The translations under genes and the position numbers were made by a program. Below, in pieces: positions 16,265-39,213 of a stretch of 64,000 bases of DNA (its first letter is position 1; the number at the start of each line of letters is the position of its first letter). The notes under the pieces were generated by a model. That model was not told the DNA's origin, did no database searches, and worked only from the letters and a program-made list of their open reading frames with translations. Source of the DNA: Eutreptiella sp. 'Long Island Sound 2002' (lineage: Eukaryota; Euglenozoa; Euglenophyceae; Eutreptiales; Eutreptiaceae); contig OZ038389.1 in NCBI GenBank assembly GCA_964036045.1, positions 42,841,119 to 42,905,118 on the forward strand, given 5' to 3'.

Positions 16265-16975
16265 GAAAGATGTCCTTGCTTTATGCCCTAGATATTTTGA
16301 TGATGTCCTGCAGGTTTTGTAGTTGAAAACCCAAACCAAAGCAGCAAGTAGAGCAATAAGAGGATGTGGATCGAATCAATGATTGGTTTTGGAATCCAGT
16401 GTAACACAGAAGGGCTGCAGATAGACAAAGCAGGTATATACACATATATTCAATCACAAATGGACAATACAAAAGATTTTATATGAAAATTGGTCTGACT
16501 CTTGCCTCAGAGATAGCATTAGGCACTTCATGTGCACTCTTTTGGGTGTAATGGTGCTGGTTAGGAATGTGGGGCATAGATGTCAGGACCACACAGAAAA
16601 TGACTTGGCCAAGCAACTGAATTCAGAAACAGTTACAAAGTAGGACCACAATAAGTGGTAGAAACAATTGAGTATAGGGGTCTTGGGGTGGGAGACCACT
16701 AGGCTTAACCTCCAAGGCCAACAAGCATGAAATGCCTGTTTTTTTTTGGTATGTCCTCCATGAAGGAAGGTACCTCCGCTCAGTTGAGTGGTAGGGGTGA
16801 ACTTCATGGGGGGGCTAGGGTCACAACCCTAGTTACTTTGAGGAGGTGTACTTTAGGCAACAAAAGAGAGATAAAAACACTTAAGTTTGTCTTAGCATCA
16901 ACAAAAGGGTTTTAAGGGGGGCTCAGCCTGGATCAAGCCCTCCAAGAAAGACATGGCAGTGACTTTTTCTTACTC
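16265..16975 (-). repeat. Element A 3' LTR
   Basis: 711 bp. Read on the minus strand it starts GAGTAAGAAAAAGTCACTGCC and ends CATCTTTC, so it lacks the usual TG...CA ends. It contains a CTAGGGT/ACCCTAG hairpin at 16,815-16,832. The interior side (16,976-16,983) reads CCAGGGGG on the minus strand, a short polypurine tract. Confidence 0.92.
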
Positions 16976-19678
16976 CCCCCTGGAGTACTAGTTGATCAAG
17001 CTAGTAGGACCAAGGAAAAAGGCTCAAATATTCCAAAAATTACCTCAGAAAATGGATTAAACCTACCAAAAACATCCTCATCACTTCATAGAAGCCTATC
17101 ACACTGTAGGTACCCTTGAAAAACAGTGTAATGTACCGTGAATGATGTCCCTTCGATGGGGCATTCCTCAAAAGTCGCCGGCGTGCGACGAAAACTTTTG
17201 GAAAAAGTGTGGGGGTAGTGGGAATTGAACACAGGACTCCCTCCCTAGAGCACATATGCTTGACCACTAGGGTACAGTCGAACGCTCTAATGCGGACGGC
17301 GACCGCTGTATAAACAGCGTTTTAGTATACGTCCTGACCAAGGGCCAGGGCGGAGCAATACTCCCAATGGAGGACACAAACCCCCAGGAGCTGGAAAAAA
17401 TAGAAAATGTAACCAGCAGGGAGTGATTTCTGCGGTTTAGCGGAAGGGGTTGCGATTTAGCAAGTGAAATCGTTAAAAATCGACGAAACCACGCGGGAAA
17501 TAGTCATTTTTACACATAACTCAAAGTCGCAGACAAGCGCAAAGGAAGCGGACTCCAAGAAAAGGGTTGCGCAAGCGTAAACGGCTTTTGGAAAAGAAGG
17601 TATGAGCCGTAGTTTTCAAAGTTTTAAAGGAAATTTTTGCACAGTTGCATCAAAATTTTTATAAACTTCAGAGTCAAGTATTCAAATTCAGCCCACACCA
17701 CAGAGCATGTCAACAACCCATCTCTCAGGTATGTCAGTGTCACCTCACACTCACGCATTGCGTTCGTGTTGGTTGTTTCGTCAAAGCGTTAGGGTTGTCA
17801 ACGCTGTGCTCGTTGGGGGGTCGGGTGTTCTTCTTTCGTGCTCTGCACAGGTAAAAACAGGAAAGAAAGGTATGTGATGCGAATGGAGCGCGCAGCGCGC
17901 ACGTAGGGTTAGAATATGCGCTGTGCTCGCGATGCATGTGCCTAATCGAGGCATCCACACGCTGTGACGCTTTACCTGTACTCCAAATTCACCCTTGTTT
18001 TCTTCTTCACAGGTAAGTAAAGAAAGCGTTTGTTCGTGTGCGGCTGTGGCGTTAAAGTAGGGTTGCTTAAAACGCTTAGGCTTGTTTTGTGTTCGTTTCA
18101 ATTCGGCATTCACACGATGCATGGTGAGTAAGGTAGGTTAGCCCAGGAGGAGCTCACCTCCTGGTTGAGTCAGTGGTTCAGCCTCCCTTCCCTGCGTGCA
18201 CATGATGCATTAAAGGGTAGGCCACGCGAATTGCGCACGGTAAACCTTGTTTAGGTTACCCAGAGGCTCCTCGGTACGTTCTTTAAGAGAACCTGAGGAG
18301 TCTCTTAAAGCTTGCTTGCTTGACAGGGGAGCTGATCCATCAGCGTGTTTGCAAACAGTGTATTATAGGTCACACTGAGAAGGGTATAATACCTGGAGTG
18401 TGGCTTGGTTCCTCCGTCGCAAACACCCCTTCATTTGCCTCTGTTGTACAGGTGGGAGAGGTTAAGGGTGATTGGTGCACGCAGCAGCTGCCTTCGGCGG
18501 CTATCCATTTTTCTGCCCCAGCAAAACAGGGGCGCTGATCACAAATCAAATCACTGTGCCTCAGCCAGTACTGGCGAGGGCAGTTCGACCTCAACGACAT
18601 CTGCGCTGTGCACGCAACGAGAGCACCCCTTCCCTCCAAGCCCTAGCAGGGGAAACGCGTTGTGGCGTCCCCTGTTAGGCCACAGCTGCTTAGGAGCGCT
18701 GTGTTCTCTTGTCTTCTTCACAGGAGGGCCATTAGGGCCTGAGTGAACTTCGACAGCAGCACCCAGTAGCGTGTGTAGGGGTTAGGGTCAGCAGGCCTGG
18801 CAGGAGGTGAGTGCAAGTGATGACTGCTCACCCTGCCTTCGAAGGCCGGTGCTGGCGTTAGCGAGTGTAGTGTAGTGGTGTCTCTTGTCCCGCGTGCTTT
18901 TCCTCGTGGGCAGGGGAGTGCGTTAGCCTTTGGCCTGTAGCAAAAATGGGCGTTTTGTATGCCCTTAGCACACTTGGCCACCCCTCCCCTCTTAGTAGGT
19001 AGGGCTTTTGCCGTCTTACCCCAAGGATAGGCGCCAGCACAGAAATTGGGCGCCATAGGAGTGGTAATAGTACCTGATTAGGACCTTCGGTCCGACGTCA
19101 GCGAAGCCCGGTCTCCGGGAGCCACGCTGGGGAGAGAAGTGAGACACATACAGACATACGTAGCACACTTAGGGGTATGGTAAACCCTGTAAGGAAGGGT
19201 AGAACCCCATGGGTCTGGACCAGTCAGGGGTCCTAACTGTGGGCTCGCTTGTCCCCAAGGAGGGAAGACACACCTTGCCTCATAACACCTTGCTTGTCAT
19301 TCCCCCCTGGTGTAGTAAGCCACCGTTCTTCGTTGGCTCACCAAGGTCATTACATTAGGGCAGTACCCATGCAACACATGGTCAACAAGGCACACACTCG
19401 CTGGGTGGCTGCAATCTTGATAAGCGGCCACCTGGCTCACGCTGGAAACCATAGGCATGGGTCTGCAGGGCACAGACAGGGTCAGTGCAGTGCTCAGTAA
19501 GCAGTAGTCTGTGAAAAAAACCAATGGCCTTCGGCCAGGGAGTGGTTGTCACGGGGGGCTAACGGTCCTGTCCTGCGATGCAATGCGGGGCAACTGTGAC
19601 AACTGCTCTTACACCCATACACAGGCACGTCTGCAGAAGAGTGCTCACTGCACCTGTCAGTAGACTGACACAGGGTGA
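16976..19678. other. Element A 3' non-coding region
   Basis: 2.7 kb between the pol stop and the 3' LTR with no ORF of recognisable family. It contains a tRNA-like module at 17.2 kb and a perfect 10-bp hairpin at 18,281-18,310 (CTTTAAGAGA / TCTCTTAAAG, 10-nt loop). The unusual length suggests extra inserted material. Confidence 0.6.
17209..17285 (-). repeat. tRNA-like module
   Basis: The minus strand shows an A-box-like CTAGTGGTCAAG and a B-box-like GTTCAATTCC about 45 bases apart, in the same sense as element A. Stem pairing is partial, so it is a tRNA-derived repeat or pol III-type element rather than a working tRNA. Confidence 0.5.
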
Positions 19679-21823
19679 TTAGTTTCGCTTCTTACGCTGG
19701 GACATAGTCTCAGCACGGGTCAGGAGCTGCCCCTCGTTGTTCTCAACGAGGTAAGTGCGGAAGATGGGGTTGATACTCCCATCTGGTTGTATGAAGGCTG
19801 ACATAGGTTCCCAGGTCGCGTCAGATAACCCATAGCCATCCCACAGGGTTAGAAATTTCCATCCCTGTTTATACTCGTGGCGAGCAATACCTGCAACCAC
19901 GTAGTAACCATCGACTGCCATCTCATCGGCAGTCATCTCTTCGAGTTCGTCTGCCTCCTCTGGACTGGCAGCGTTCTCTAGGTCTATACGCTCGACCTCA
20001 CTGTCGCTGAGGCGCCACTCATCCCAAGACAAGTCGTCAGGGGAGTGATAGTGCCTCAACTGCTTAGGTGCACACAGCAGTTCACCACCTAGACGTGGAC
20101 TGCACCTGACATGGATCCTGGATCCATCTATCCTGATGATACGATAGGGTCCAAAGTAAGGGTCCTGTAGGCAGTTACGTGGCCAGGAGGGTAGGCGTGA
20201 ATGGTGTACCAAAACAAGGTCACCAACCTTGAAGCTGGCAGGTCGCCGTAGGCGGTTCCGTCGGCTCTGTTCACGGTCACGAATGTGCCTCAGGTTAGTA
20301 CCAGCCTGGTTAGCCAGAGACTGCTTGTGTTCCAGCCAATCTCCCACAGGGCTCTTGAAGTCCTCAGGAAAGGGGGTTTTGAAGAACCAAGCAGGTCGTC
20401 CTCCATGGAACAGTTCGTGGGGGGTGAAACCCGTAGAAGAGCTCCGCTGTGAGTTCATGGACAGCACTGCCCAGGGCACTAGGCGTACCCAGTCCTTGGT
20501 GCGCTCCTGTTTCATCAGGGTTCTTAAGTTTTGCTCCACCACACGGTTCTGTCTCTCACAGAGAGGGTTAGACGTGTGAGTATAGGGCACACCTGTGGTT
20601 ACCTCCACGTTGAGGGCATTTAGCACTCGTTTGTACCACCCAGTGTCACTGCGGATGCGTACATCTTCATCAGAGTGCACCTGCTTAGGTGCTCCATAGG
20701 GTTCGAACCATTGTTCGACCAACATTTTTACAGTCTGCTCACCTGTGATTTTCTTATTGCAAGGGAACACACGGGTGAAGCGAGATAGACCACAGGTGAC
20801 CACGAGGCAATTATCATAGCCGCCAAAGCGTGGTAGGCCGTGGATGTAATCCACGTAGAGAAGAGAGTTAGCACAATAGGGTATGGGTAAGCTGGAGATC
20901 AGGCCCCTATCCCTACTGTCGCTCTGCTTGCTGGCATGACAGCCACAAGCATCCACAATGGTCTGCATACGCGACCTCAGTTCCGTCAGGGTTAGACTAG
21001 AGTAGAAACACTCACGGAAGAAGTCCACTGAGCGATTAGCGCCAGTGTGACCAGAACTGAGATGGGACCACTGTAGGCACCCATCCAGTCGTGCCTCAGG
21101 CACCACAATTCGGTCCTCGTAGAAGAGGTACTGATTGTTTTTATACCACTGGTGCCCGTCAATGACACGGGGTTCGAGACCAGTGCTGAGGGTTTGGAGA
21201 ATTTCTTCATACTCTGACTGATAGTCGGTTAGACTCCAACCCTCCAGGATTCCAGCAGTGCGCATGGACAGGTCAAGCTGGACATCCATACGCTGGAAAG
21301 CCTCTTTGGCGAGCGCCTCAGAGCTCTCACCAATAAGCGCATCGAAGTTGTTGCACGATATATAGTCAGACAGTTCATTCTTAATCCCGGGGATATGATG
21401 CACTGTCAGCCTGAACTGGCTCAGGTAAGTCCACCACCGTTTTAGCTTTGCTTTTTCTGGTGGTGGGCCCTTCTGAAAAGACTTCACAGGCTCCTGGTCA
21501 CACAGCCAGACAATAGGGTTAGATCCCAGGAGTCGGGATTGTGACGATAGCACCAACATACCGGCCAGGAGTTCCTGGTCATAGGTGCTGTAGTTGGAAC
21601 GCGCTTGGTTCCATTTCCAATTCCAGTGTCCCAGTGGCACCAGTCGCCACTCACTGGTAGGATAGTCATGTTTCAACGAACCATCACGGTTCAGTCCAGT
21701 AGTACGATAATGGCAGTGGGTTAGTTCAGCGGGGTTAAGCTCCTGCCATTGGTAGATCGTACCACCCCCCCCTACATCACTGACATCAGTGATCAGGACT
21801 ATCTCGCCCTCAGGGCGGGGCAC
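19679..21823 (-). CDS. Element A pol, part 2: RNase H, integrase, chromodomain
   Basis: A 714-codon frame, in the same frame as the RT part and separated from it by one TGA (21,824-21,826). It begins with RNase H (ITDVSDVGGGGTIYQ, residues 11-25; RLTVHHIPGIKNELSDY near 138-154). The integrase has a zinc-binding-like H254/H259/C293/C295 (the second pair is CXC, not the usual CX2C) and catalytic D325, D385 and E423. A GDLVLVHHSRLP-type C-terminal domain and a chromodomain (about residues 640-690, YYVVAGIARHEY...WEPMSAF) follow; a chromodomain steers integration toward marked chromatin. The ORF looks intact. Relatives in the window are E and, by its gag and protease, D. Confidence 0.9.
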   Translation of the reverse strand: MPRPEGEIVLITDVSDVGGGGTIYQWQELNPAELTHCHYRTTGLNRDGSLKHDYPTSEWRLVPLGHWNWKWNQARSNYSTYDQELLAGMLVLSSQSRLLGSNPIVWLCDQEPVKSFQKGPPPEKAKLKRWWTYLSQFRLTVHHIPGIKNELSDYISCNNFDALIGESSEALAKEAFQRMDVQLDLSMRTAGILEGWSLTDYQSEYEEILQTLSTGLEPRVIDGHQWYKNNQYLFYEDRIVVPEARLDGCLQWSHLSSGHTGANRSVDFFRECFYSSLTLTELRSRMQTIVDACGCHASKQSDSRDRGLISSLPIPYCANSLLYVDYIHGLPRFGGYDNCLVVTCGLSRFTRVFPCNKKITGEQTVKMLVEQWFEPYGAPKQVHSDEDVRIRSDTGWYKRVLNALNVEVTTGVPYTHTSNPLCERQNRVVEQNLRTLMKQERTKDWVRLVPWAVLSMNSQRSSSTGFTPHELFHGGRPAWFFKTPFPEDFKSPVGDWLEHKQSLANQAGTNLRHIRDREQSRRNRLRRPASFKVGDLVLVHHSRLPSWPRNCLQDPYFGPYRIIRIDGSRIHVRCSPRLGGELLCAPKQLRHYHSPDDLSWDEWRLSDSEVERIDLENAASPEEADELEEMTADEMAVDGYYVVAGIARHEYKQGWKFLTLWDGYGLSDATWEPMSAFIQPDGSINPIFRTYLVENNEGQLLTRAETMSQRKKRN

Positions 21824-21826
21824 TCA
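21824..21826 (-). other. In-frame TGA between RT and RNase H of element A
   Basis: The codon after ...SSNCL is TGA, and the next codons (VPRPEGEIVLITDVS) continue the same frame into RNase H. It is either a nonsense mutation or a leaky stop; only this copy of the region is in the window. Confidence 0.8.
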
Positions 21827-24345
21827 CAGGCAGTTGGAGGAGGCAATCTTCTTCTTCAAATCCTGGAAACACTCTTCCTCTCTGGAGGTCCACCTCCAGG
21901 GAGTAGTTTTCTTGATCAGGTCAGTGAGGGGTGCAGAGGAGTAAGTAAAATTGTGGATGTGACGCCGATAGAAATTACAGGCGCCCACAAAACTCCTCAC
22001 ATCGTGTAGACCCTTCTTAGGGTCATCGCGAATCTGCATGTCCTGTAGGGGCTGCATCTTAGACGCGGCTGGTTTCCACCAGCCATACCCCACGTCGAAA
22101 CCCAAATACTCCATCTCCTCCTTCATAAACTCACATTTTTGGAGTTTGATTCGGAGATGGTTTTCTTGACAGACAGTGAAAAATTCACGGAGGAGAAGGA
22201 CGTGGTCCTCTTTGGTATTAGTACCTAAACTCACGTCGTTGATGTGAGCCTCCATTTCTGCACCCCGAGAAATCAACTCTTGTACTAGAGGCCTGCGCCT
22301 CAGTATGTACAAAATTTTGTTCATAAGCTCCTGGAAGAGCGCTGGGGCATTTGCCACCCCGAAAGGCATAACCTTCCACTTGAAGACACGACCCTTAGGG
22401 GTTATAAAAGCCAGCAGCTCCTGAGCTGCGGTGGTCAAGTCAACCTGCCAGAAACCAGAGCGTTTGTCCATTTTGGTCTTATACCTGCATTTGGCAATAC
22501 GCTCCAAGGTGTTTTCCATGTTAGGAATACTCCCTGAGTGGTTCTGGGTTTTCTTGTTGACCTCACCATAGTCTACAACAAGACGTAGGGCAGTCGACCC
22601 TGGTTTAGCAACAAGGAAACAGGGACTGCAGTGATGGGGATAGTCCCCGTGTTTATACTCTTCAACGAGGCCAGCATCAATGCATTCTTGGATCTGGCGC
22701 TCGATTTCTTCGACCTGTTCCTGTGGAGCGGGATAGGGACGACGCCTCACTCGCGTCTTTTCAAATTCTGGTTTCAATTTCAGGTCCATCTGGACCAGTT
22801 TTTTACAAGAAAGGGGAGGCGGCAAGGCGCCGAACACCTCCTCATAGGTTATAAGCAGTTTCTTCAGGCGGGGGTCAAGGTTAAGACTCTCGAGTTTCTG
22901 AAGGAAATCCTCCTCATCATGGAGGTTGCTTTTTCCATGTTCTTTCTTTTTATGCCGATCAGCAGTTTTGGCAGGCACAGTACCATCGTCCCACTCAGGG
23001 GGACATTGCTGCCCATAGTGTAGAGAATACACTAGAGGTATCTCAGGATCAGGCAGCGTATAGGACTCATCGTCCTCCTCAGACCAGATGGAGTATTTCC
23101 AGGTCTGTCTGAGGTATTGCAGCCGCTCTTGGCGCTCAATACCTTCGGCCTTCAGGTACAACAGCCGCCGGAGTTCTTGAGTGTCATGCTCAGACAATGG
23201 CATGTTATTAGCAGCAGGCCGCGCCAGAGCATCAGTACTCCGGGCCACGGGTTCACCTGTGTGCACAGGCTGCATGTGTAGCACTGGCTTCCCAACAGGG
23301 GAAGCGGGTTCAGAGGTTGACTCTAGATCTACCTCCTCTAGCAACAGCTGGGCTAGGAAAGCACTATGTTTTAGGTCAACACAGCTGGGATCAACAGAGG
23401 GAGTAGTGCTGGCGATCTCAGACAGTTGGTCGTCAGCATCTTCCTTTACAGCTGCAGGTTCCAGATAGTCATCAGGAGACTCACACCCTGTAAGTGTGGC
23501 AGATAGGTGCTCAGAAGATCGATTTTTGAGATCATAAAGGGTCAGGCCACGATTTTCGGCCATGACCTCTTTTAGTAGCACCTGGTCTAGGTCACACAGG
23601 GGTACAAGATTGAGAGATCCATCGACGATGGACAGGAAACTGGCCCACTCAGGGGCCTGCATAGCTGTGTCTGAGTCCTCAGGCACATAGATGGGACCGT
23701 CGGGGAGTTGCACTCTTCCCACGGTCATTCGATCTAGCATACGGCGCCAGTAAGCATGTTCACCAGAGCAACCCCAGTCAGGGGTGCACATAACAACCCT
23801 TCCTCTCTCATAAGCGATTTTGGTTAGAACCTTCGCGAGCAGGGAGAAGGGAGGGTTAGCATACGCTAGGCCCATTGCTTTCCAGAAGAAACGGAAAGCA
23901 TTGTTCATTTGTTTCGAGCAGTACAACTGCATGATGTGCTGTTGTTGGCTCGCAAACAATTCCACCTGGATCTCATCCAGGTTTACCTGAAGGGCCGCCA
24001 GTCCATTTTCAAGAGCGTGACGGGCCAGTTGGTAGTTTTCAGTACGATAGTTCGTCTTGGCTGCGTAGCGCAGCCCAGACTCTTTTCGTCCTGACAGCTC
24101 CAAAGGAACGGAGAATAGCCCACTGCCAAAGTCGCAGTGCAAAGAGTATGGACGCTGTAGGGACAGCATTTTAACCTGGGGGTTTCTTCTTAGAAAGTCG
24201 GTGCCAATGACGATGTCAAAGGCGTCAGTGTCCAACACTCTGCAGTGTTGGGTCACGGTTTCGTCGCCCAGACATATGGTCACATGGACCCCCCCCAAGG
24301 AATGGATGGTACGCCCATCCCCTACTCTTATGGCCACGGTCTTAG
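21824..24345 (-). CDS. Element A pol, part 1 (downstream copy): MTase-like domain and RT
   Basis: Element sequence in this frame starts at 24,345 inside the protease domain; codons further upstream belong to the GC-rich insert. It encodes the end of the protease (DIVIGTDFL), the NPPF methyltransferase-like module, an acidic linker, and RT with RLVVDYGEVNKKT, KMDKRSGFWQVDL and KVMPFGVANAPALFQ. The catalytic YxDD box reads His-Ile-Asn-Asp (22,235-22,246): the first Asp is Asn and Tyr is His, which should abolish polymerase activity. The frame ends at TGA, after which RNase H continues in the same frame. Confidence 0.9.
23037..24345 (-). repeat. 1,309-bp direct repeat, copy 1 (element A PR-MTase region)
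   Basis: Matches 27,824-29,132 at a constant offset of 4,787 with no indels and about six substitutions. Both copies are element-A protease/methyltransferase sequence in the same orientation, flanking the GC-rich insert. Confidence 0.95.
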
Positions 24346-24366
24346 GTAGGTAGGTAGGTAGGTATC
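24346..24366. repeat. (GGTA)5 tract at the insert edge
   Basis: Five GGTA units directly at the junction with element A. Simple-repeat tails mark the 3' ends of some non-LTR retrotransposons. Confidence 0.85.
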
Positions 24367-24931
24367 TTCGGGAGCTCGGGATGCCTCCTTTGACATTGCA
24401 GGAAGAAGGTCTTACCAAGGGGACGTCCTGTCCCTCCCACTGCCCTATGTCAGGTGCCTCTTGAGCCGCTCCCGCATGTGCTTGGGAAGGCATTGTCGCG
24501 GCCACCCGGTCCATGTGTCCCAGGTGGGAGGGTGTCCCCACATGTGTCCATGGGTAGGGCCACATGCCCCCTCCTTTGGGCGGCAGCTCTGGGGGGCTGC
24601 CCAGTAGTGTGGAGTATCTCTCACCACAAGGGGTATTGCTCCCGCTTGTCTACGGTACGACCGCCTCACACTTGTGGCTTGAGTTGCGGGGCCACTCTGC
24701 TTGGCAGGTGACCCCCTCCTGGACTGTGTACCGGCTCGCCTGTCACCGGTTGTTTCCATGGCTCCGGGTGACGTTTGCCATGGTCCCCGGTGCAGCCTGG
24801 CCGGGCTCGGACCAGTGGCCTTGGAGTACCGCTCCTGCCACTGGCCCGTTGGGTCGGCTGGGTCGTCCCAGTGCGTCCGACCCATGGGGTATTGGTTGTT
24901 TTCTGTCCCTCGGCCTCCCTACGTGTGTGCA

Positions 24932-25125
24932 GTGTCCTGGGCCGTTGGGCTCCTGTTCACCGGTGTGCCCGCGCGGTTTGCTGTGGTGCGTCTGCGGTGT
25001 CCTGGGCCAGCTGGCTCCTGTTCACCGGTGTGCTCACTCGGTGCGTTGTGTTGCAGGTGCGGTGTCCTGGGCCACTGGGCTCCTGTTCACCGGTCTGCGT
25101 GCTGTGTGCGGTGCGCGTGTGCCCT
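24932..25125. repeat. 65-bp tandem repeat, three copies
   Basis: GTGTCCTGGGCC begins at 24,932, 24,997 and 25,062; each unit continues to CTCCTGTTCACCGGT. Confidence 0.85.
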
Positions 25126-25387
25126 GGGTGGTTGTGTCCCTCTTCCTCCCCCCCTGATTTTCGTTTTTTTTTTCTTGTTTTTTTTTTCCCTGTTTTTTTT
25201 TTTTTTTGGAAAAAAGAAAAAGAAAAAACAAGAAAGTGGTAAACAGGGGCGCGCGTACACTGCAGGCACAGGCACGGGCAGCTGGTGCGGCGGTGCTATA
25301 GCGTTGTGTCCTCTGGCGTGTGTCGTCGGTGCTGTGGTGGCGGTCGCGCCCCAGGGGTGCGGCTCGCGTGTCCTGATGTACACGGGT

Positions 25388-25760
25388 ATGGGTCAGGGTG
25401 GGTTTGGTTAGGTGTCTCTTTGCTTCTGGTGCTGGTGGTTAGGCGGCTGTGTGGGCTGTGGCTGTGGGCTGTGTCCACGTATTTCCCTCTGCGGGCCTGG
25501 TTTGGAGTCAAGGGTTGACGGTTTCGGGGTGTGGCTCGGGTTTGATTTGTGTTGGGGCTTCGGCTCGGTTAGGCTTGGGTCAGGGTGGGTTTGGTGAGGT
25601 GTCTCTTTGCTTCTGGACCTGGCTGGTTAGGCGGCTGTGTGGGCTGTGGGTGTGGGCTGTGGTTACGTTGTTCCCTCGGCGGGTTTGGTTAGGAGTCAAG
25701 GGTTAGCGGTTTCGGGGTGTGGCTCGGGTTTGATTTGTGCTTGAGTTCTGGATCGGTTTG
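25388..25760. repeat. 188-bp tandem duplication
   Basis: GGGTCAGGGTGGGTTTGGT recurs at a period of about 187-188 bp, and both units end near GTGGCTCGGGTTTGATTTGTG. G/T-rich with several indels between units. Confidence 0.85.
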
Positions 25761-25862
25761 GCGGTGGCGCGGGGCCGGGCGTGTGGGTAGCGGCGTCCAC
25801 GGGGTCGTGCGCCCGAGGCGAGTGCGGGGTGGTGCGTGCGGGCCAGCCGGTGGCCGGTGGCC

Positions 25863-26264
25863 TCACTGGGAGTCCCACACGGAGGGGTCGACGGGCGTGC
25901 CGGGGGCGTACGCAGCGTGCAGGTTGGGCAGCAGCGGGCGCACGTGCAGGGCGTCGGCGTGCCCGATGAGGACCTCACTGAGGACGGAGGGGTTGGCGGC
26001 AAGCAGTATGCGATGCCCGGGAGGGGTGGCGGCGAGGAGCGGGAGGATGTCCGCGGCCCGCGACGTGGGGGCGAACACGACGTGGGCCGGGTGCGGCCCC
26101 GGGAGCGGTGCTGGGGGGAGCGGGACCACAGGACGGCGGTCTACTGTGAGGTGCCAAGTGGGCGATGCTGTGGCGCAGTGTGTGGGGCTGGGTGCTGGGC
26201 GGCGTGGGGACGTGCGGCGGGAGGGGGGGGGGGGGGGGCGGGGCGGTGGCGTGGGAGGGGGCAC
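25863..26264 (-). CDS. Unknown protein in the GC-rich insert
   Basis: 133 codons. After a Pro-rich stretch, about 95 residues look globular, with alternating hydrophobic runs (AHVVFAPTSRAADILPLLA, GHRILLAANPSVLSEVLIGH). I do not recognise the family. It lies downstream of the larger frame of the insert, in the same sense, with an in-frame stop upstream. Confidence 0.35.
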   Translation of the reverse strand: MPPPTPPPRPPPPPSRRTSPRRPAPSPTHCATASPTWHLTVDRRPVVPLPPAPLPGPHPAHVVFAPTSRAADILPLLAATPPGHRILLAANPSVLSEVLIGHADALHVRPLLPNLHAAYAPGTPVDPSVWDSQ

Positions 26265-26466
26265 GGCGGAGGAGTGACGTCAGTGACGTGTGTGTCGTGC
26301 TGAGGTTGGAGAGGAGCCCACGGTATCGGGCCTGGGTTCGGCGCCTTTGGGCGTAGTGGTGCTCGTTGTCGTGTGCGCTGGCTTCCTTCGGCGTCCGGTT
26401 CGTTTGGTGACTTCTGGGCGGGGCCTGGCTTGGCGCCCCGTGGTGTTGGTGTGCTGGGTAACGGGG

Positions 26467-29268
26467 TTAGATGGCGGCGCCGCTGGCCGGGGGGTCGGGC
26501 GCGTCGTGTTGTGTGGCGCGCAGGGCTCCTGGGGTGCTGTGGGTGTCGCCGGTGTCGGTGCGCCGACGCTTGTGGGGTGGTGAGGGGGTGTGTGCGTGCG
26601 GAGCTGGGCTTTGGGTGACGTCCCACAGGCGGATGCCGTCTCGCCGCGTTTCCTGGAGGGTCTCCCGCAGGCGCCTGAGGACATACGGCTGGTCCTGGGG
26701 CGCGGGGAGGTTGCGGGGGTGGACTCCCAGGGGGTGGAGCGCATCGGCCAGCATGGCTTCCCATGCGGCCTGCGGCATCCACCCCCCCGCCGGCCGGAGG
26801 CGGCAGTTCTCCACCGACCCCTTGCGGGGCCGATGGACCAGGCCCTCGAGGGAGGGCTCTCCCCGGGCCCACTTCCGCAGCTCCCAGAGCTGCGTGTGGG
26901 TCCAGCGCTGCCACCACTGTTCCTGGGCGGGCCTGCGGTCTTGGGCGGAGGAGTGGGCGTGGGTGGGTGTGACGGGGTCGTGGGGACCGGCGGCGGTGGC
27001 GGGCCTGGGGGATTCCTCGTAGTCCTGTTCCGTGGGGGTGCGTGGGGAGTGGGGGTGCACGCGGATGTGGACCCGCGGGTGTGCGCGTACGGTCTCCGCC
27101 TCGGGGTTGGGCGGGGATTCGCGGCGGCGGCGGTAGTGGGGCATGCGTTGCATGTGGGCTGTCATCGGGGGCCGGTAGGGGGGCGGGGGCGCTGCTGGTG
27201 GACCCTGGAGCGGTCCGTGGGCCTGGGGTGCGGGCTTTGGGAGGTGGTGGGACGAGGCGCGTCGCGCTTCGGCCGCGGCGCGCTCCGCCATGAAGGTGGT
27301 GGCGGTGCCGTCGGTGACGGTGGGGGGGCGCCGCGCTGGGCGCTGCTGCCTTCGGGCCTGGGACGGCTGGGGCCGGATGTCGTAGAGGACATCCTCGGGG
27401 GGCCGGGCTCGCGCTGCCGTCGTGGCGCCGGGCTTGGGCTTGGGTTTGGGCTTGGCTGCGGGTCGCCGTTTGGCGGCGGTCTTGGGCTTCGGCTGGGTCG
27501 TGGGCGTGCGCTTCGCCGGGGCGTGGGCTTTGGCGGCGGCGGGGCTGCTCGCGGTGGGGGCGGGTTTGGAGGCCCGTTTGGGAGGTGTCCCCCGCGGCCT
27601 GGGGGGTGGAGTGCTGGATGAGGACGTGGTGGTGGTGGTGGATGAGGTGGTCGTGGTGGTGGAGGTTGTGGAGTCGGAGGCGGAGGAGAGGGCTGTGGGA
27701 GACGGCGGAGGGTCCCGGGCCTCGGGGGCGGGCGTATGATGCTGGGTCCTGTAGGTAGCGAGTGCGAGGGTGCAGGTTCGGGCATCGGGCGTGTGCGCGC
27801 GTTTTTTCTGGTGATCCGTGCGTGGTATCTCAGGATCAGGCAGCGTATAGGACTCATCGTCCTCCTCAGACCAGATGGAGTATTTCCAGGTCTGTCTGAG
27901 GTATTGCAGCCGCTCCTGGCGCTCAATACCTTCGGCCTTCAGGTACAACAGCCGCCGGAGTTCTTGAGTGTCATGCTCAGACAATGGCATGTTATTAGCA
28001 GCAGGCCGCGCCAGAGCATCAGTACTCCGGGCCACGGGTTCACCTGTGTGCACAGGCTGCATGTGTAGCACTGGCTTCCCAACAGGGGAAGCGGGTTCAG
28101 AGGTTGACTCTAGATCTACCTCCTCTAGCAACAGCTGGGCTAGGAAAGCACTATGTTTTAGGTCAACACAGCTGGGATCAACAGAGGGAATAGTGCTGGC
28201 GATCTCAGACAGTTGGTCGTCAGCATCTTCTTTTACAGCTGCAGGTTCCAGATAGTCATCAGGAGACTCACACCCTGTAAGTGTGGCAGATAGGTGCTCA
28301 GAAGATCGATTTTTGAGATCATAAAGGGTCAGGCCACGATTTTCGGCCATGACCTCTTTTAGTAGCACCTGGTCTAGGTCACACAGGGGTACAAGATTGA
28401 GAGATCCATCGACGATGGACAGGAAACTGGCCCACTCAGGGGCCTGCATAGCTGTGTCTGAGTCCTCAGGCACATAGATGGGACCGTCGGGGAGTTGCAC
28501 TCTTCCCACGGTCATTCGATCTAGCATACGGCACCAGTAAGCATGTTCACCAGAGCAACCCCAGTCAGGGGTGCACATAACAACCCTTCCTCTCTCATAA
28601 GCGATTTTGGTTAGAACCTTCGCGAGCAGGGAGAAGGGAGGGTTAGCATACGCTAGGCCCATTGCTTTCCAGAAGAAACGGAAAGCATTGTTCATTTGTT
28701 TCGAGCAGTACAACTGCATGATGTGCTGTTGTTGGCTCGCAAACAATTCCACCTGGATCTCATCCAGGTTTACCTGAAGGGCCGCCAGTCCATTTTCAAG
28801 AGCGTGACGGGCCAGTTGGTAGTTTTCAGTACGATAGTTCGTCTTGGCTGCGTAGCGCAGCCCAGACTCTTTTCGTCCTGACAGCTCCAAAGGAACGGAG
28901 AATAGCCCACTGCCAAAGTGGCAGTGCAAAGAGTATGGACGCTGTAGGGACAGCATTTTAACCTGGGGGTTTCTTCTTAGAAAGTCGGTGCCAATGACGA
29001 TGTCAAAGGCGTCAGTGTCCAACACTCTGCAGTGTTGGGTCACGGTTTCGTCGCCCAGACATATGGTCACATGGACCCCCCCCAAGGAATGGATGGTACG
29101 CCCATCCCCTACTCTTATGGCCACGGTTTTAGTTTTCCTGAAAGTCTTAAGCAGGCGCCGGGCCACTATGGAAAGTGTTGCACCGGTATCAAGCACCGCT
29201 CGAAAAACCTGATCCCCGATTTTCACAAGGATCCAGAAAACCAAGTCCTCCTCTTCGGAGCCGCCCCC
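26467..29268 (-). CDS. Element A protease and MTase-like domain fused to the GC-rich insert frame
   Basis: A long frame opening right after the gag TAG. The aspartic protease has AVLDTGATLSIV (catalytic Asp about residue 19, counting from 29,244) and DIVIGTDFL. The methyltransferase-like module has LFAS at 167-170, NPPF at 201-204 and PDW at 226-228. Element sequence stops at 27,824 (residue about 473, after DPEIP), and the frame runs on for about 450 residues into Pro/Ala/Arg-rich sequence of the insert, ending at 26,467. That tail has a basic low-complexity start and a more ordered part near WWQRWTHTQLWELRKWARG that I do not recognise. The fusion is probably a by-product of insertion. Confidence 0.8.
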   Translation of the reverse strand, partial: GGGSEEEDLVFWILVKIGDQVFRAVLDTGATLSIVARRLLKTFRKTKTVAIRVGDGRTIHSLGGVHVTICLGDETVTQHCRVLDTDAFDIVIGTDFLRRNPQVKMLSLQRPYSLHCHFGSGLFSVPLELSGRKESGLRYAAKTNYRTENYQLARHALENGLAALQVNLDEIQVELFASQQQHIMQLYCSKQMNNAFRFFWKAMGLAYANPPFSLLAKVLTKIAYERGRVVMCTPDWGCSGEHAYWCRMLDRMTVGRVQLPDGPIYVPEDSDTAMQAPEWASFLSIVDGSLNLVPLCDLDQVLLKEVMAENRGLTLYDLKNRSSEHLSATLTGCESPDDYLEPAAVKEDADDQLSEIASTIPSVDPSCVDLKHSAFLAQLLLEEVDLESTSEPASPVGKPVLHMQPVHTGEPVARSTDALARPAANNMPLSEHDTQELRRLLYLKAEGIERQERLQYLRQTWKYSIWSEEDDESYTLPDPEIPRTDHQKKRAHTPDARTCTLALATYRTQHHTPAPEARDPPPSPTALSSASDSTTSTTTTTSSTTTTTSSSSTPPPRPRGTPPKRASKPAPTASSPAAAKAHAPAKRTPTTQPKPKTAAKRRPAAKPKPKPKPGATTAARARPPEDVLYDIRPQPSQARRQQRPARRPPTVTDGTATTFMAERAAAEARRASSHHLPKPAPQAHGPLQGPPAAPPPPYRPPMTAHMQRMPHYRRRRESPPNPEAETVRAHPRVHIRVHPHSPRTPTEQDYEESPRPATAAGPHDPVTPTHAHSSAQDRRPAQEQWWQRWTHTQLWELRKWARGEPSLEGLVHRPRKGSVENCRLRPAGGWMPQAAWEAMLADALHPLGVHPRNLPAPQDQPYVLRRLRETLQETRRDGIRLWDVTQSPAPHAHTPSPPHKRRRTDTGDTHSTPGALRATQHDAPDPPASGAAI
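27824..29132 (-). repeat. 1,309-bp direct repeat, copy 2
   Basis: Partner of 23,037-24,345. Here it is contiguous upstream (29,133 and beyond) with the intact protease start and gag, so this is the copy on the 5' side of element A. Confidence 0.95.
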
Positions 29269-29271
29269 CTA
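29269..29271 (-). promoter_or_regulatory. Candidate readthrough stop, TAG-GGG, gag/protease of A
   Basis: Gag and protease share one frame and are divided only by this TAG, followed by GGG GGC. UAG followed by G-rich sequence resembles the gag-pol readthrough context of murine leukaemia virus and of carmoviruses/tombusviruses. No downstream pseudoknot was modelled. Confidence 0.6.
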
Positions 29272-31234
29272 TTCCTCATCAGGGAATTTCACATCCACCC
29301 CTGCAGCCATGAGGGACTTGGCCATCCAGGCCAAGCGCCTCTTCTTAGAATTATTCCCCTCAGGGGTAGCGTTATCCCCTTGGGGGCGTTTCTTGGGGTC
29401 AACTGCGGGAGCGGGTGTAGCAGCAGGAGTGGGTGTAGCAACGGGCGCTGATGAGCGCCTCTGGGGGTTAGGGGGTCCAGTTTTGCCACCCCCTTTGCCA
29501 CCTCCTTTACCACCTTTATCCCCGTTCGGGGGATTTCTGGCGGGCGTCTGGGTCTTCTGGCGCTCCGCCTCCTGACGCTTGAGTTTGTCACTCTCGCGTT
29601 TCTTGATGTGGCATTCGTCCTCGTAGTGACGACGTTTGCCACAGTAACCACAGGTGATAGTACACCTGAAATGGTCCTGATGGGTCACCTGTTTCCCATC
29701 TTTGGTGTGCTGCTGACGTTTCATCTGCAGCATACAGCCACTGCGGAGATCGCAGTCAGAGGCATGACAAGGTCCCCCCTTGTCATTGACAGGTCGGCAG
29801 TAAAACAGGGGGGGTGTGCCTGCATCAGGTTGAACCTCGTTCATGGCACGTAGGTTGCCCCTCCCTTTACCACCTCCCTGGTTGGTGTTAGTGGGATTTT
29901 TATGCCCCTTCCCTTCGCCACGTTCGGGGGTAGGGGTACCACCTCGTCCCAAATGCTTCTTGAGGAATTTCTCCATGTGGGAGTCATTCTCTCTCTCAAG
30001 AGCTAGCTCAATCAAGAGATCCACCAGTTCATCGTACGAGTGGGTCTTGCTCTTCCTCTCAGAGGTGGAGCGGCAATCATCCCACGTACGCTGGGGGATC
30101 TTACTCATGAGCCACAGGTGGGGCTCAGTGGCTCCGTAGGAGCCCACATTCATCCTCGAAAACAAGTACTCCAAGTCGCACACATACTCAGAAATTCGCG
30201 CAGCGGATGGAAACTCAGGGAGCATAGGTAGCTCCTCAATCTGTGTGCGTACGCTGAGGTCAGTCTCATAGACTGGGAATGTTTTCTCCAACCTCAGGAG
30301 TACCTCTGCCCAGGTAGAACAGGTTTTCACAATCTGTTTAACCTGTTTTTTGCAAAAACTTCTTTTTGCATGAGCGTTTTAGCAGTGAACATTTGGTGGC
30401 CACATCCACATGGGATTGGCCAGTCAACAAAAGGAACTCTGCAAATTCTTCTGCCCATTCGGGCAGATTTTTGGGGTCGAACTCCGGCAGTTCCAGCTGG
30501 ATGTTCGCCTGGGCAATTGGTCTGCCCGTCTTCCCACCCCCCGGAGTTAGGCCTGAAGGCGACACGCCGGCAAGAGGGGCCAGGGCTGACAGCCCTCTTC
30601 TCTCACTCTCTGTGACAGGCATGTCCTGTAGATCAGCCATAGGCACAGTCCTGGCACGGGGGTGAAAGGGGCTGGGGCAGGTGACCTTAGGCAACAGCCT
30701 TGAGACCCTTGATCTCTTGAGATCCTCGGCCAGGGTACTCAGTCCTGGAGAGAGAGAGGGCAACTCTGGCTTGGGTAAGGGTTCTGCAATACCCAGTTTA
30801 GCCTTAATGGCCTCCGATAAGGCCGTCACATCTGGATCTTCTGATCCGGAAAGGAGTTTGGCCAACAGCTCGGCCGTATGATCCAGGGCACCGTAGGTTG
30901 GCCTTGGATGATGGTGTTCTTCGACTCGAGTAGGGCCCACTTCGGGAGCCCTCAGGGTTGGACAACATGGTCTTGGATACTCAGGTCTTAGTCGTCTTGG
31001 CAGGGATGCAGTGGACGGAGGACCAGAGTGTGCGTAGGACCCTAGGTCTGTACGTGGTCTGGATCCATGTACAGCCAATGGCTCCTCTCCATCTTCCCCA
31101 CGGATGGATTTGTAGTACTCCTCATGCATGATGTACTCATCCATCTTCTTCCTCAGCTCCTCATACTCCTCAGGTCCTTCAATGGCAGTTGAGGATGAAG
31201 CTGGGCAATTGGATCTTGATACTGAAGCAGCCAC
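29269..31234 (-). CDS. Element A gag (one frameshift)
   Basis: Nucleocapsid/capsid polyprotein. The first frame (31,234-30,338) holds an acidic/Pro-rich N-terminus and the start of a capsid domain (LPEFDPKNLPEWAEEFAEFL). It ends in a premature stop after a run of six A, and the same protein continues one base over (30,330-29,269) with KTFPVYETDLSVRTQI. Near the C-terminus are HASDCDLRSGC and a CX2CX4HX4C zinc knuckle (CGYCGKRRHYEDEC, residues 227-240 of the second frame), then Gly/Lys-rich and basic tails. The matching order in element D is uninterrupted across the A-run, so the break is a homopolymer indel or sequencing error. The frame ends in TAG, in frame with protease. Confidence 0.9.
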
Positions 31235-31529
31235 ACGTCTGTGGAGGTGACTGAAGCTGTCTCCACTGTGTGCTGCTAAGGCCTCGGTGGTAAGGCCTTT
31301 ATTCTATTCCGCCCTTCTGCGTTCTGGATCTCCTTGGGACCCAGATGCGCCACTGAGATGATGTGGAGCTCGGTAAGGTGGTTCACTCATTGGGTGGGCC
31401 ATGCTGCCCATTTGTACTTGGACAGTTCGGATGGGCCAGGTCCTGACACTTGGCGTGGACATGGTGAACTTGTTGTTGAGCTTTTGTGCTGCACTTCTTC
31501 TCAGGGTCGGTTCAAAAGGTCACAAGGGA

Positions 31530-31544
31530 CTGTCTCTGCTACCG
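31530..31544 (-). other. Element A primer-binding site
   Basis: Directly after the 5' LTR the minus strand reads CGGTAGCAGAGACAG. Element D has TGGTAGCAGAAGG at the same place. The pattern resembles the initiator-Met tRNA site TGGTATCAGAG with small changes. Confidence 0.6.
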
Positions 31545-32255
31545 GAAAGATGTCCTTGCTTTCTGCCCTAGATATTTTGATGATGTCCTGCAGGTTTTGT
31601 AATTGAAGACCCAAACCAAAGCAGCAAGTAGAGCAATAAGAGGATGTGGATCGAATCAATGATTGGTTTTGGAATCCAGTGTAACACAGAAGGGCTGCAG
31701 ATAGACAAAGCAGGTATATACACATATATTCAATCACAAATGGACAATACAAAACATTTTATATGAAAATTGGTCTGACTCTTGCCTCAGAGATAGCATT
31801 AGGCACTTCATGTGCACTCTTTTGGGTGTAATGGTGCTGGTTAGGAATGTGGGGCATAGATGTCAGGACCACACAGAAAATGACTTGGCCAAGCAACTGA
31901 ATTCAGAAACAGTTACAAAGTAGGACCACAATAAGTGGTAGAAACAATTGAGTATAGGGGTCTTGGGGTGGGAGACCACTAGGCTTAACCTCCAAGGCCA
32001 ACAAGCATGAAATGCCTGTTTTTTTTTGGTATGTCCTCCATGAAGGAAGGTACCTCCGCTCAGTTGAGTGGTAGGGGTGAACTTCATGGGGGGGCTAGGG
32101 TCACAACCCTAGTTACTTTGAGGAAGTGTACTTTAGGCAACAAAAGAGAGATAAAAACACTTAAGTTTGTCTTAGCATCAACAAAAGGGTTTTAAGGGGG
32201 GCTCAGCCTGGATCAAGCCCTCCAAGAAAGACATGGCAGTGACTTTTTCTTACTC
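31545..32255 (-). repeat. Element A 5' LTR
   Basis: 711 bp, about 99% identical to the 3' LTR. Outside it lies ATTCA, the target duplication. Confidence 0.93.
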
Positions 32256-35721: not shown

Positions 35722-38700
35722 TCATGTCTGCGCACACCATTTGGCGGCAGCCTTGCCAGTCATGGCATTCACGTTGCAAGGCAAGACATGAATGTACCCT
35801 GAGTGTCTACCTTGAATTAATAACACAGCATTGATTTTTTTGTTGGTCCAATGGCATTCCTCTCCCTCCGGGTCACCGAGGTAGAAGAAATCAGAGGTGA
35901 CTTGGTGGAAGAGTCGCTCGTGTACGGGATGCGGCCTCAGATAGCCCTTAGGCTTGGCCGTAGCAGGCACCGCCACTGCACATTGGGCACATGATGAGGC
36001 CACTTTCATGCAGTGGGTGTGCAATCGAGCTCCAAAGAGACGATGTTTAATGGATTTCCAGAGTTTGGCGCCATGGGAGTGAGGAGTCTCCCACTTGTGC
36101 CACCAGTTGACAACTCTGGACGCCAATCTGTCAGGCACGCACAGTTTCCCATCCATCCACAGTTTTTCGTTGTCCAAAAAATATTCGGAATGAATTCCGT
36201 CCTGAAATGCTGACTTTGAAGTCAAATGTTCGTAGATTTCTTGAAACATATTATCGGATTCATATTCTTTGGACCAATCCTTGGTGAGCAGGGAGTCCTT
36301 GGGGATCGCCTGGGCAGGTGCCACAGGTTTTCGACCCAATGGATGGACACATCTGAACCGCACCACAGGATTTCGTCGTTTAACGAACTTGGGGGTGGAT
36401 TCCCCAGGTTTAACTAGTCTGAGGGTGTCAACACGCACTGCAGAGCACTGGACATGGGAATGTGGGGGATGACCCTCCACTGTGATATCATGGCAGGGCA
36501 ATCGACCCTGCCGGACTGAACACTGTAGACAGTGGCGCTTAATCAACTGCCTTTCCTCAGCATCCCACTCAATTACTAACCCACGGTCTTGTTCAGTCCC
36601 ATGGATGTTCGTCGACAGGCACACTTCGGAAGCAGGATATGCCCATCTGCTTAAAGCGTCAGCGACAGTGTTGTACTTGCCTGGAAGGTAAGCCACATGA
36701 AGATCGAAAAGACTCAAAAACTCGTGCCATCTAGCACGCCGTCCAGCAGGACCTGACACCGTGTTTACATGTTCTGTCGACCAATACTCAAGAGAGCGAT
36801 GATCCGTCAGAACTTCAACTCTGTTTGTGCCTATCCACAATTGATATTTTTTTAAGGCACAGATGATGGCGTAGGTCTCCTGCTCACGGGGGGACCACTG
36901 CATTTGTCTGGGAGAAAGCTTCCTCGACCAGAATGCAAGCGGATAATGAGCCCCAGTTTCTAAATCTTGCTGTTCTAACACTGCCTCAACCGCATACTTA
37001 CTAGCATCAGTCCTAAGGTAGAAAGGGCGATCGAATTTGGGAAGGTGCAAAGTGGCGACTCCGCAAAGGGCGGCTTTTAATTGCACAAACGCCTCATCGC
37101 ACTCGTCGGTCCACTGCACTCGCACCTTCGAGCCCGCACGACCAGCCTCCCTACCAACCTTGAGTAATTCAGTAAGGGGGGCGGCGTACCTGGCAGAATC
37201 CTTGAAGAAAGTATGGTAAAAATTGCAACAGCCAAGTAATCCACGAAGGGCCGAAATGGTCTCAGGGCGCTTCCACTTCTGAATTGCAAGGAGCTTCCCT
37301 GGACTCGGCTGGCGAGTCCCATTTCGTAGCAAACTGCCACAGAATTCGACACTTTCCAGGAATAATTTACCCTTCTTGGGACCGCAGATGAGCTGACTTT
37401 TGTCCAGAATGTCGAGGACCATGTTCAGCTGTTTCTCATGCAGGTCCACAAGCTCCTGTTTGGTTAAACCATCGCCCACAGTGGCAATGATTATGTCGTC
37501 GATATATACGGAAACGAAATCGCGAAGCTCAGGGTGCTCTGAAAACAAGACTTCTTCCATCATCCGTTGGAAAAAGCTCGGAGCATTCTTCAAACCCATA
37601 GGCATGACGGTCCACTGAACAGGACCCACTGGACTGCACATGCACGTCAGGGGTCTGGATGACTTCGCCAGAGGCATCTGCCGGAAGCCATGCCTTAGAT
37701 CCAGGACTGAGAATAGTTTGCCCTTGGCTCTTTTCACCATTTCCTCCTGTATGAGGGGTAAAGGGTGAGAATCAGCCTTAGTTTCCGCATTTAAATTACG
37801 AAACTCAACCACCATGCGCCAACCATCAATGGTATTCTGGTCTGCTGGGGGCGGTTTAGGCACTGTGAAGGGCGCACAACACCACTCAGAGGTCATGCAC
37901 GCCTCCAAGCAGCCGAATTCTCGCAGATTTCTCTGAATGATGTCACGAAGAATTTCATGCTTCTTGCCATGATTTTCGTAAGGTCGCTGCTTTTTGGGTC
38001 TTGCTCCCTCCTTTAGCTCGATGAACGCCTCTCCGTGCAGGCCACGCACTGGAGGGTTCTTGACTAGCTTACCAGAGAGGGTGGTCTCCTTTCGCCCGGC
38101 GAAAATCTTTTCCCTTCGCTCATTGCAAAGTTGACTTTCAACCTGTTCACCAGCCACCACCGTAGAGCAAATTTTCGCCAAATCTCGCGATCCAACAGGC
38201 AACAGACCTTGTTTCAACGACTGAAACAGAGCGGGATCGACTCCCTCTTGCGGCCATGTCGTGGATGTTCGAACCTGCTGAGCATCTTCCACATCCTCAC
38301 AGACAAAGGGGTCCAAAAAGGCCTCAGACTTGGGTTTTTCGTAAAATTGTCTGAATTTGACCTTCTTTCGGAAGTTTTTTCCCTTGACCACGTGGGAGAT
38401 GCTTGATGGATCTGATCGTATTGGGGTCTGACTACAATCAGACGTTCCAGATTCCAGGTTCGGCACCGTATCATCTCCTTCCAAAAAATCGGAAAAATTC
38501 GAATCTGAATCCGTACCATGGTCAAGACCTGATTCTGACCCATGGTCTGATGTGCAAGATCCGTCAGAGATGAGACCTCCATCGACCAGAAAAGCGACGG
38601 AAGGCCACGGCTGCTGTCGCAGGGGACCAGTGTCGTCCCTGGCGTACAGCTTGACGTCGTGGGGGAGGCGGATGGAGTCGACTGTCATGGCCAAAACATC

Positions 38701-39213
38701 CTTCCACCATGGTTTCCAATCCCATAGTGGTACAACAAGGATGGCCTGTGTGCGATCCTCCTTTTTTTTTTGAACGACCTCTCCCAACAAATGAAAAGGG
38801 GGGTTTATCCACAGCCTTTTATCCCACTTTACTGCCCATGCATCGTCAGCTAAGCGCTTGAAACGCTTGTTTAACTTGTTGCAAAAGGCATCCTTGGCGG
38901 GCACAAAATCGTGGTTCTCCAAAAAATAGGAACATATATAATCACGCGACTTATCTACAACGCGGTAGTTGGAAGACTTCCAATTGCGCGGTTTGGGACG
39001 CTGAGTGTCCCTTCGTCGCTCCTGTAGCAAGATGCTGTAAGCTGTAGTGGCGTTCATCTCACTAATCCCTTCATCCTCACCAAAAACTGTGTTCACCCTT
39101 CGACTCAAAAATTCTTTTGCATTTCGGTACCCAGAATGCAAGAAACGAAAGCTGGGAGCTTCCTGCTCTCCCGATTCCAAAATAAAACAACGTCTGTGTC
39201 CTACAGGGGCCAC
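35722..39213 (-). CDS. Element B pol, first segment: MTase-like, RT, RNase H, integrase N-part
   Basis: 1,163 codons. The methyltransferase-like module spans about residues 85-190, with NPPF at 137-140 and VVPLWDW following. RT has WRMVVEFRNLNAET, SVLDLRHGFRQMPL and an intact YIDD at 570-573. RNase H has LRTDASKYAVEAVLEQ and AYLPGKYNTVADALSRW. The integrase zinc domain and first catalytic Asp (TSDFFYLG) follow. The frame continues from the protease after a TAA at 39,241-39,243 that falls within the conserved D-L-x-x-G motif, a simple nonsense mutation. Confidence 0.9.
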   Translation of the reverse strand: MAPVGHRRCFILESGEQEAPSFRFLHSGYRNAKEFLSRRVNTVFGEDEGISEMNATTAYSILLQERRRDTQRPKPRNWKSSNYRVVDKSRDYICSYFLENHDFVPAKDAFCNKLNKRFKRLADDAWAVKWDKRLWINPPFHLLGEVVQKKKEDRTQAILVVPLWDWKPWWKDVLAMTVDSIRLPHDVKLYARDDTGPLRQQPWPSVAFLVDGGLISDGSCTSDHGSESGLDHGTDSDSNFSDFLEGDDTVPNLESGTSDCSQTPIRSDPSSISHVVKGKNFRKKVKFRQFYEKPKSEAFLDPFVCEDVEDAQQVRTSTTWPQEGVDPALFQSLKQGLLPVGSRDLAKICSTVVAGEQVESQLCNERREKIFAGRKETTLSGKLVKNPPVRGLHGEAFIELKEGARPKKQRPYENHGKKHEILRDIIQRNLREFGCLEACMTSEWCCAPFTVPKPPPADQNTIDGWRMVVEFRNLNAETKADSHPLPLIQEEMVKRAKGKLFSVLDLRHGFRQMPLAKSSRPLTCMCSPVGPVQWTVMPMGLKNAPSFFQRMMEEVLFSEHPELRDFVSVYIDDIIIATVGDGLTKQELVDLHEKQLNMVLDILDKSQLICGPKKGKLFLESVEFCGSLLRNGTRQPSPGKLLAIQKWKRPETISALRGLLGCCNFYHTFFKDSARYAAPLTELLKVGREAGRAGSKVRVQWTDECDEAFVQLKAALCGVATLHLPKFDRPFYLRTDASKYAVEAVLEQQDLETGAHYPLAFWSRKLSPRQMQWSPREQETYAIICALKKYQLWIGTNRVEVLTDHRSLEYWSTEHVNTVSGPAGRRARWHEFLSLFDLHVAYLPGKYNTVADALSRWAYPASEVCLSTNIHGTEQDRGLVIEWDAEERQLIKRHCLQCSVRQGRLPCHDITVEGHPPHSHVQCSAVRVDTLRLVKPGESTPKFVKRRNPVVRFRCVHPLGRKPVAPAQAIPKDSLLTKDWSKEYESDNMFQEIYEHLTSKSAFQDGIHSEYFLDNEKLWMDGKLCVPDRLASRVVNWWHKWETPHSHGAKLWKSIKHRLFGARLHTHCMKVASSCAQCAVAVPATAKPKGYLRPHPVHERLFHQVTSDFFYLGDPEGEECHWTNKKINAVLLIQGRHSGYIHVLPCNVNAMTGKAAAKWCAQT

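Follow-up and report, generated by a model that had tools for sequence, protein, structure and literature searches.

A Dam-like methyltransferase domain ahead of the reverse transcriptase in Ty3/gypsy retroelements of Eutreptiella

A stretch of 64,000 nucleotides from Eutreptiella sp. 'Long Island Sound 2002' (contig OZ038389.1 of assembly GCA_964036045.1, forward-strand positions 42,841,119 to 42,905,118), hereafter called the window, carries reading frames for retroelement polyproteins on both strands. Among them are those of four elements, A to D, each of which has in its pol region a module of about 145-155 residues (Table 1). Relatives of this module were sought by profile searches of the 2.28-Gb genome that holds the window. 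It appears that the module is a member of the Dam family of adenine methyltransferases (Pfam PF05869), that it precedes the reverse transcriptase (RT) of elements of the Ty3/gypsy type and that it has diverged in parallel with RT.

An initial annotation of the window, made from its letters, had noticed a module common to A (two copies), B, C and D and had estimated its length at about 110 residues. The kinship of the copies is confirmed. A profile built from four modules found elsewhere in the genome recovers all five window copies (E from 5.4e-32 to 2.6e-16, the next open reading frame (ORF) of the window scoring E = 1), leave-one-out profiles recover each of them at 8.5e-37 to 2.5e-24 and a window-only profile finds the other families of the genome (best 2.3e-31). 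The length had been underestimated, the module having in addition an N-terminal helix/strand and a C-terminal strand, W-x-(S/T)...VDG. The signature first proposed, (W/Y)xNPPF and then a hydrophobic strand ending in P-x-W, describes A and B, which are the only window elements with a literal NPPF. It does not describe C, which reads W-I-H-C-P-R-W at the former site and PMG, without the tryptophan, at the latter, and in D the corresponding context is G-N-P-R-F.

Search of the genome with the Dam profile yielded 93 matches at E <= 1e-3 among the 150 scored of 3,813 candidates, and 93/93 exceed the curated Pfam cut-off of 28.1 bits. Twenty-eight of these loci (L001-L008 and L010-L029), picked by score or for spread, were read; the module is present in 28/28, as expected from their selection. 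By our own grouping they form four further families, E (18 loci), F (8 loci), B2 (L025) and G (L026), making eight with A to D. In the frames scanned, the Dam domain lies upstream of RT within the same pol frame (L010, L021, L025, L027); in L026 it occupies the frame immediately preceding that of RT.

The features of a Ty3/gypsy element are found in A, where protease, RT, RNase H and DDE integrase follow one another in this order between long terminal repeats (LTRs) flanked by a target-site duplication, the integrase core remaining under the cut-off. The same holds for C, with a protease recognized by eye. D and G match protease, RT, RNase H and integrase, with protease and integrase core under the cut-offs; the G protease, ahead of the module, scores 0.0029, and the pol of D continues beyond the window end (L089) into RT (RVT_1, 3.5e-26), RNase H and an integrase core (5e-7, under the rve cut-off). 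RT, RNase H and integrase are matched in B2 and E, and RT and RNase H in F, whose integrase is represented by weak C-terminal matches only. No LTR pair for B was seen within the window. The protease that the initial annotation had placed ahead of the module is borne out by a profile match in A and, below the cut-off, in D; those of B and C were identified by eye only. In B2, E and F no protease match is shown in the frames scanned, which weighs against a uniform arrangement of protease, module and RT. The designation of the window elements as chromoviral fits C, with its clear chromodomain; in A and in D (0.0094, past the window end) the matches are below threshold, and none is seen in the shortened frame of B. 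The chromodomain of B2 is clear (8.2e-8), and none was found in the scanned pieces of B, E, F and G. Identity with DIRS-type elements is rejected on the grounds of separate RNase H and integrase, LTR pairs, duplications of 4-5 bp and the position of the module before RT. No tyrosine recombinase (PF00589) is listed for the ORFs scanned, no genome search having been aimed at it.

The wider domain family belongs to Dam. Four families exceed the Pfam cut-off, namely E (45.8 bits, 6.8e-12), F (36.4 bits, 5.3e-9), G (29.1 bits, 9.3e-7) and B2 (28.9 bits, 1.1e-6). The E module also matches TIGR01712 (5e-8) and the DNA methyltransferase family phrog_111 (4e-11), finds phage T1 Dam by tblastn (1e-5, 29% identity over 80%) and retrieves one phage Dam (1e-4) in a scan of IMG/VR. 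Comparison of profiles by hhalign gives a probability of 97.1 (E 7e-11, 77 columns) for eight modules against five phage Dams, and of 94.4 (E 8.8e-8) for the window modules only. The joint alignment with phage Dam spans the W/Y start, motif I, motif IV, a lysine, P-x-W and the last strand; the names X, I and IV are assigned to the aligned motifs by the conventions for this enzyme class.

Several results weigh against assigning the window copies to Dam directly. Modules A, B and C reach only about 19 bits and D has no match to the Pfam profile at E <= 10; PHROGs returns no match for C and D, and NCBIfam none for B. A profile of 11 phage Dams scores A at 0.11, where the top-scoring of 20 shuffled sets reached 0.058. 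It scores C at 8 and does not match D, so that B (0.0023) is alone in beating the shuffles. This small phage-only profile fails to give direct proof for three of the window elements (A, C and D), so that the case is carried by the intermediate families. Modules A, B2 and F, used as queries against IMG/VR, found no relatives, and sequence searches of PDB gave nothing useful. The window copies thus join the family by the link through their same-genome relatives only and, with that qualification, the Dam homology proposed in the initial annotation is well supported. Chance resemblance was considered and rejected.

The AF2 model of the A module, made from window sequences only and with no Dam sequence, consists of alternating strands and helices in a Rossmann-like methyltransferase fold (predicted local distance difference test, pLDDT, 74.7; predicted template modelling score, pTM, 0.73). 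Its top match in BFVD is a phage DNA N6-adenine methyltransferase (2.3e-4), and the five BFVD matches at E <= 0.001 comprise two N6-adenine methyltransferases, one 'methyltransferase' and two unnamed or uncharacterized proteins. The C model is of the same class, its first two BFVD matches being DNA N6-adenine methyltransferases. Foldseek comparison of the A model with PDB ranks first 6irx, a zebrafish cap adenosine N6-methyltransferase (2.6e-3), with RlmJ from rank 6. It must be noted that none of these PDB matches attains E <= 0.001 and that the C model is of lower confidence (pLDDT 64), both of which count against the structural argument. The notion that the module has an unrelated fold, such as an RNase H duplicate or a connection domain, or that its carriers are DIRS-type rather than gypsy elements, found no support and is in our judgement next to inconceivable. 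An RNase H or connection fold did not emerge as the best profile match or in either model, and it is rejected because the significant profile matches and both fold models indicate DNA or adenine methyltransferases.

The divergence of the module parallels that of RT. Over the eight families their pairwise identities correlate with r = 0.87, a value reached in 4 of 40,320 permutations, and both trees (FastTree, unrooted, eight taxa) group A+D+G, B+B2 and E+F, which suggests one old capture. In an alternative model, methyltransferases of phage-like or DIRS type were captured several times, independently, by different lineages of gypsy. The low identity of the modules between A/D/G, B/B2, C and E/F (21-38%) would agree with it, as would the discordant placement of C in the module and RT trees, a point that also speaks against common descent with RT, and the trees contain no root and no DIRS or other eukaryotic sequences. 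However, the module precedes RT in 8/8 families and the correlation with RT extends over all of them, and we regard repeated capture as rather unlikely.

A and D share 84% identity in RT but only 50% in the module, and synonymous sites are almost saturated in either region, which indicates that the module evolves faster than RT. The protease end and the linker share this property with the module, the three being 32-50% identical between the two pol sequences against the figure given for RT. Rapid divergence could mean that the module is a decaying relic under no selection. The ratio of nonsynonymous to synonymous substitution rates (dN/dS) of 1.47 in the F module points the same way and would count against constraint, but it derives from five near-identical copies (dS 0.02) and says little. 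Against decay, the proportion of nonsynonymous differences between the A and D modules (pN 0.39) is lower than that of synonymous ones (pS 0.77), and dN/dS is 0.196 in E (9/18 copies); 9/18 E loci and 3/8 F loci were left out of these estimates because their modules are incomplete. The pN/pS values of C and D are 0.097 and 0.094 (11 copies each); the copies were drawn from the best protein scores, which biases the ratios downwards and weakens them as evidence for constraint. C and D are large families; their first-look candidates number 31,440 and 27,948, which are not copy counts. All the matches scored, 150/150 for each, are 98-100% identical, and the module is free of stops in 149/150 for C and 148/150 for D. 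One of ten fetched C copies has a stop and was kept in the counts. A relic under no selection is therefore a highly improbable explanation.

The state of motif IV differs between families. It is intact in A, B and B2 (NPPF), in G (NPPW) and in 7/8 F loci (NPPF, the eighth having NPPC). E has NAPF in 16/18 loci, with one NTPF and one DAPF, and D has NPRF in 11/11 copies read, window copy included. In C the motif is HCPR, again in 11/11 copies read including that of the window, and the alignment places H and R at the positions of the motif IV asparagine and aromatic residue. Since the motif is lost in every C copy read while the domain is conserved, C most likely works without methyl transfer. 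In D and E the asparagine and the phenylalanine are kept, so that the domain may be catalytic there. The role suggested in the initial annotation, modification of the element's own DNA, is on these sequence grounds disfavoured for C and uncertain for D.

Two opposite views of these data may be considered. According to the first, the altered motif IV would still function, and adenine methyltransferase activity would be retained in all families, C and D included. Conservation of the domain in C, D and E is compatible with this, as is the retention of the asparagine and an aromatic residue in NAPF and NPRF. Erm/KsgA-type enzymes use N-L/I-P-Y/F at motif IV. The absence of both residues from each of the C copies makes activity in all families decidedly unlikely. 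The second view holds that the domain is non-catalytic everywhere and is kept only because it binds nucleic acid or has a structural role in Pol. The variability of motif IV (NPPF, NPPW, NAPF, NPRF, HCPR) in a fold that otherwise persists argues for it; the intact NPPF/NPPW of five of the eight families (A, B, B2, F and G) argues against it, and we are inclined to doubt it.

We consider it likely that the module is a captured adenine methyltransferase of the T1 Dam type, inherited with RT, which would be catalytic where motif IV is intact and non-catalytic in C. A domain with a motif X-like start, a D/E-x-F-A motif I, an NPPF motif IV and P-x-W would have joined a Ty3/gypsy pol after the protease and before RT, prior to the split of the families seen, and would then have been passed down together with RT. 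In A, B, B2, F and G, as well as in E with its NAPF, it most likely carries out S-adenosylmethionine-dependent methylation of adenine. The substrate may be the cDNA or genomic RNA of the element itself, modified within the particle after processing by the protease. The C domain would most likely be a part of Pol that binds nucleic acid or a cofactor and does not methylate, and that of D could be either catalytic or non-catalytic. On this reading some families probably still encode an active enzyme, whereas C, and perhaps D, would have a pseudo-enzyme. A more specific proposal, to which we give about even chances, is that the methyltransferase was captured by a lineage resembling chromoviruses and that C, and possibly D, both abundant and apparently recently amplified, have a conserved pseudo-methyltransferase which serves replication in some way other than methylation, the enzyme being retained in sister families.

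Compared with phage T1 Dam and its family (PF05869, TIGR01712), the module has the W/Y start, D-x-x-A, N-P-P-Y/F, K, L/V-x-P, W-F and the last strand in the same order and with the same spacing. Unlike T1 Dam, which is the product of a free-standing gene and has NPPY, it is a segment of pol with NPPF, altered in C, D and E. PCIF1/CAPAM, which in PDB comes closest to the A model in fold (template modelling score 0.53 over the query), is an RNA enzyme with other domains and the match is modest.

Retroelements with a Dam-like domain are established. DIRS elements, whose RT is akin to that of Ty3/gypsy, do carry one in pol, as the initial annotation had stated, matched by the same Pfam profile, according to two papers (PMC3266345, PMC3783388), the first of which called its function unknown in 2011. 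In the DIRS1-like elements described there, the domain follows RT-RNase H and is accompanied by a tyrosine recombinase, with neither protease nor DDE integrase. In the elements studied here it stands before RT and is accompanied by an integrase, as well as by protease and LTRs where these are seen; DIRS is set apart by this description. DNA methyltransferases (DNMTs) are also established in gypsy and DIRS elements, according to PMC5890265 and PMC6338049. KnitGypsy-Dnmt3 and SymbioDIRS/SymbioLINE-Dnmt resemble the present case in that a retrotransposon, in one instance a gypsy element, bears a DNA methyltransferase; theirs are cytosine DNMTs, described as structurally unrelated to Dam-like enzymes (PMC5890265). 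Self-methylation of the element has been suggested for the DIRS DNMT and, by analogy, for adenine enzymes in the same paper. One sentence of this literature we read as loose wording, because the sentences preceding it attribute DAM to DIRS and DCM to both. An orchid gypsy element has likewise gained an enzyme of adenine methylation, an AlkB m6A demethylase; it is a demethylase, encoded by an extra ORF and directed to RNA (PMC9289625). The literature matches listed, which leave most subscription papers outside, contain no clear description of gypsy elements with a Dam domain placed between protease and RT, and an earlier report may exist. The view that the position ahead of RT is unusual for Ty3/gypsy is well supported.

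The same fold thus occurs in another order of retroelements and at another position in pol, with intact and lost motif IV in one genome, which opens the question of function to experiment. Were methylation important, marks would be expected on the cDNA, RNA or insertions of the intact families and not on those of C. The intact families may be an additional source of adenine methylation in a eukaryotic genome, and annotators should consider retroelement parts when PF05869 matches are met in eukaryotes.

Table 1. Elements, domains and module copies in the window (E-values refer to the profile named)
Feature	Position	Strand	Remarks
Module, A copy nearest gag and protease	28399..28845	-	NPPF, PDW; Pfam Dam 0.00099, 19.3 bits
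Module, A duplicate before RT	23612..24058	-	NPPF, PDW; 99% identical to other A copy; Pfam Dam 0.015 (full ORF)
Module of B	38572..39000	-	INPPF, PLW; Pfam Dam 0.0012; genome-only profile 5.4e-32
Module of C	50625..51065	+	IHCPRW at motif IV; Pfam Dam 0.0012; TIGR01712 0.0011; genome-only profile 6.6e-21
Module of D	63378..63839	+	NPRF at motif IV; genome-only profile 2.6e-16; TIGR01712 0.24
Element A	16265..32255	-	711-bp LTRs 16265-16975 and 31545-32255, 99.3% identical; 5-bp flanking duplication ATTCA
Aspartic protease of A	28972..29226	-	PF13975 4.8e-7, over cut-off
Reverse transcriptase of A	22094..22609	-	PF00078 4.2e-27
Integrase core of A	20579..20875	-	PF00665 4.3e-6, below Pfam cut-off
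Possible chromodomain of A	19799..19888	-	PF00385 0.011, sub-threshold
Reverse transcriptase of B	37336..37860	-	PF00078 7.9e-23; RNase H next, PF17917 1.3e-24
Element C	41986..59258	+	3-kb LTRs 41986-45011 and 56234-59258, 98.5% identical, TG...CA ends
Target-site duplication of C	41982-41985 and 59259-59262		4-bp CTGG; flanks element C
Reverse transcriptase of C	51804..52307	+	PF00078 2.4e-23
Integrase core of C	53598..53882	+	PF00665 5.6e-7, 30.2 bits against cut-off 32.6
Chromodomain of C	54501..54611	+	PF00385 6.3e-9; PDB matches are chromomethylase, HP1 and CBX chains
Gag-like ORF of D	60433..62880	+	no Pfam match; called gag from position and by eye
Aspartic protease of D	62982..63242	+	PF13975 3.6e-5, below cut-off

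Within A, apparently a single LTR-bounded element, a stretch of 1309 bp is present twice in direct orientation (23037-24345 and 27824-29132, 99.5% identical). The initial annotation had located a module between protease and RT at 28300..28760. Gag and the protease do lie upstream of that copy, but it is followed by GC-rich, foreign-looking sequence, and it is the duplicate at 23.6-24.06 kb that continues into RT. The GC-rich block (about 66%), which sits between the two duplicates, has foreign-looking ORFs of low complexity.

Element C is about 17 kb in length and its LTRs are unusually long. Its pol frame in the window has 1457 amino acids, and many copies in the same genome have longer open frames (up to 1658-1673 amino acids and more). 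Across its gag-like region (44000-48000) GC content rises to 66%; the ORF of this region, at 45312-48404, has no Pfam match at E <= 0.01. Rfam at gathering thresholds has no match in the window. An inverted piece of 294 bp at 14904-15195 is 91% identical to a portion of the A LTR and is probably the remnant of a related LTR. Two-copy tandem repeats occur at 4503-4695, 8813-9008 and 25389-25762, with units of about 88, 98 and 187 bp.

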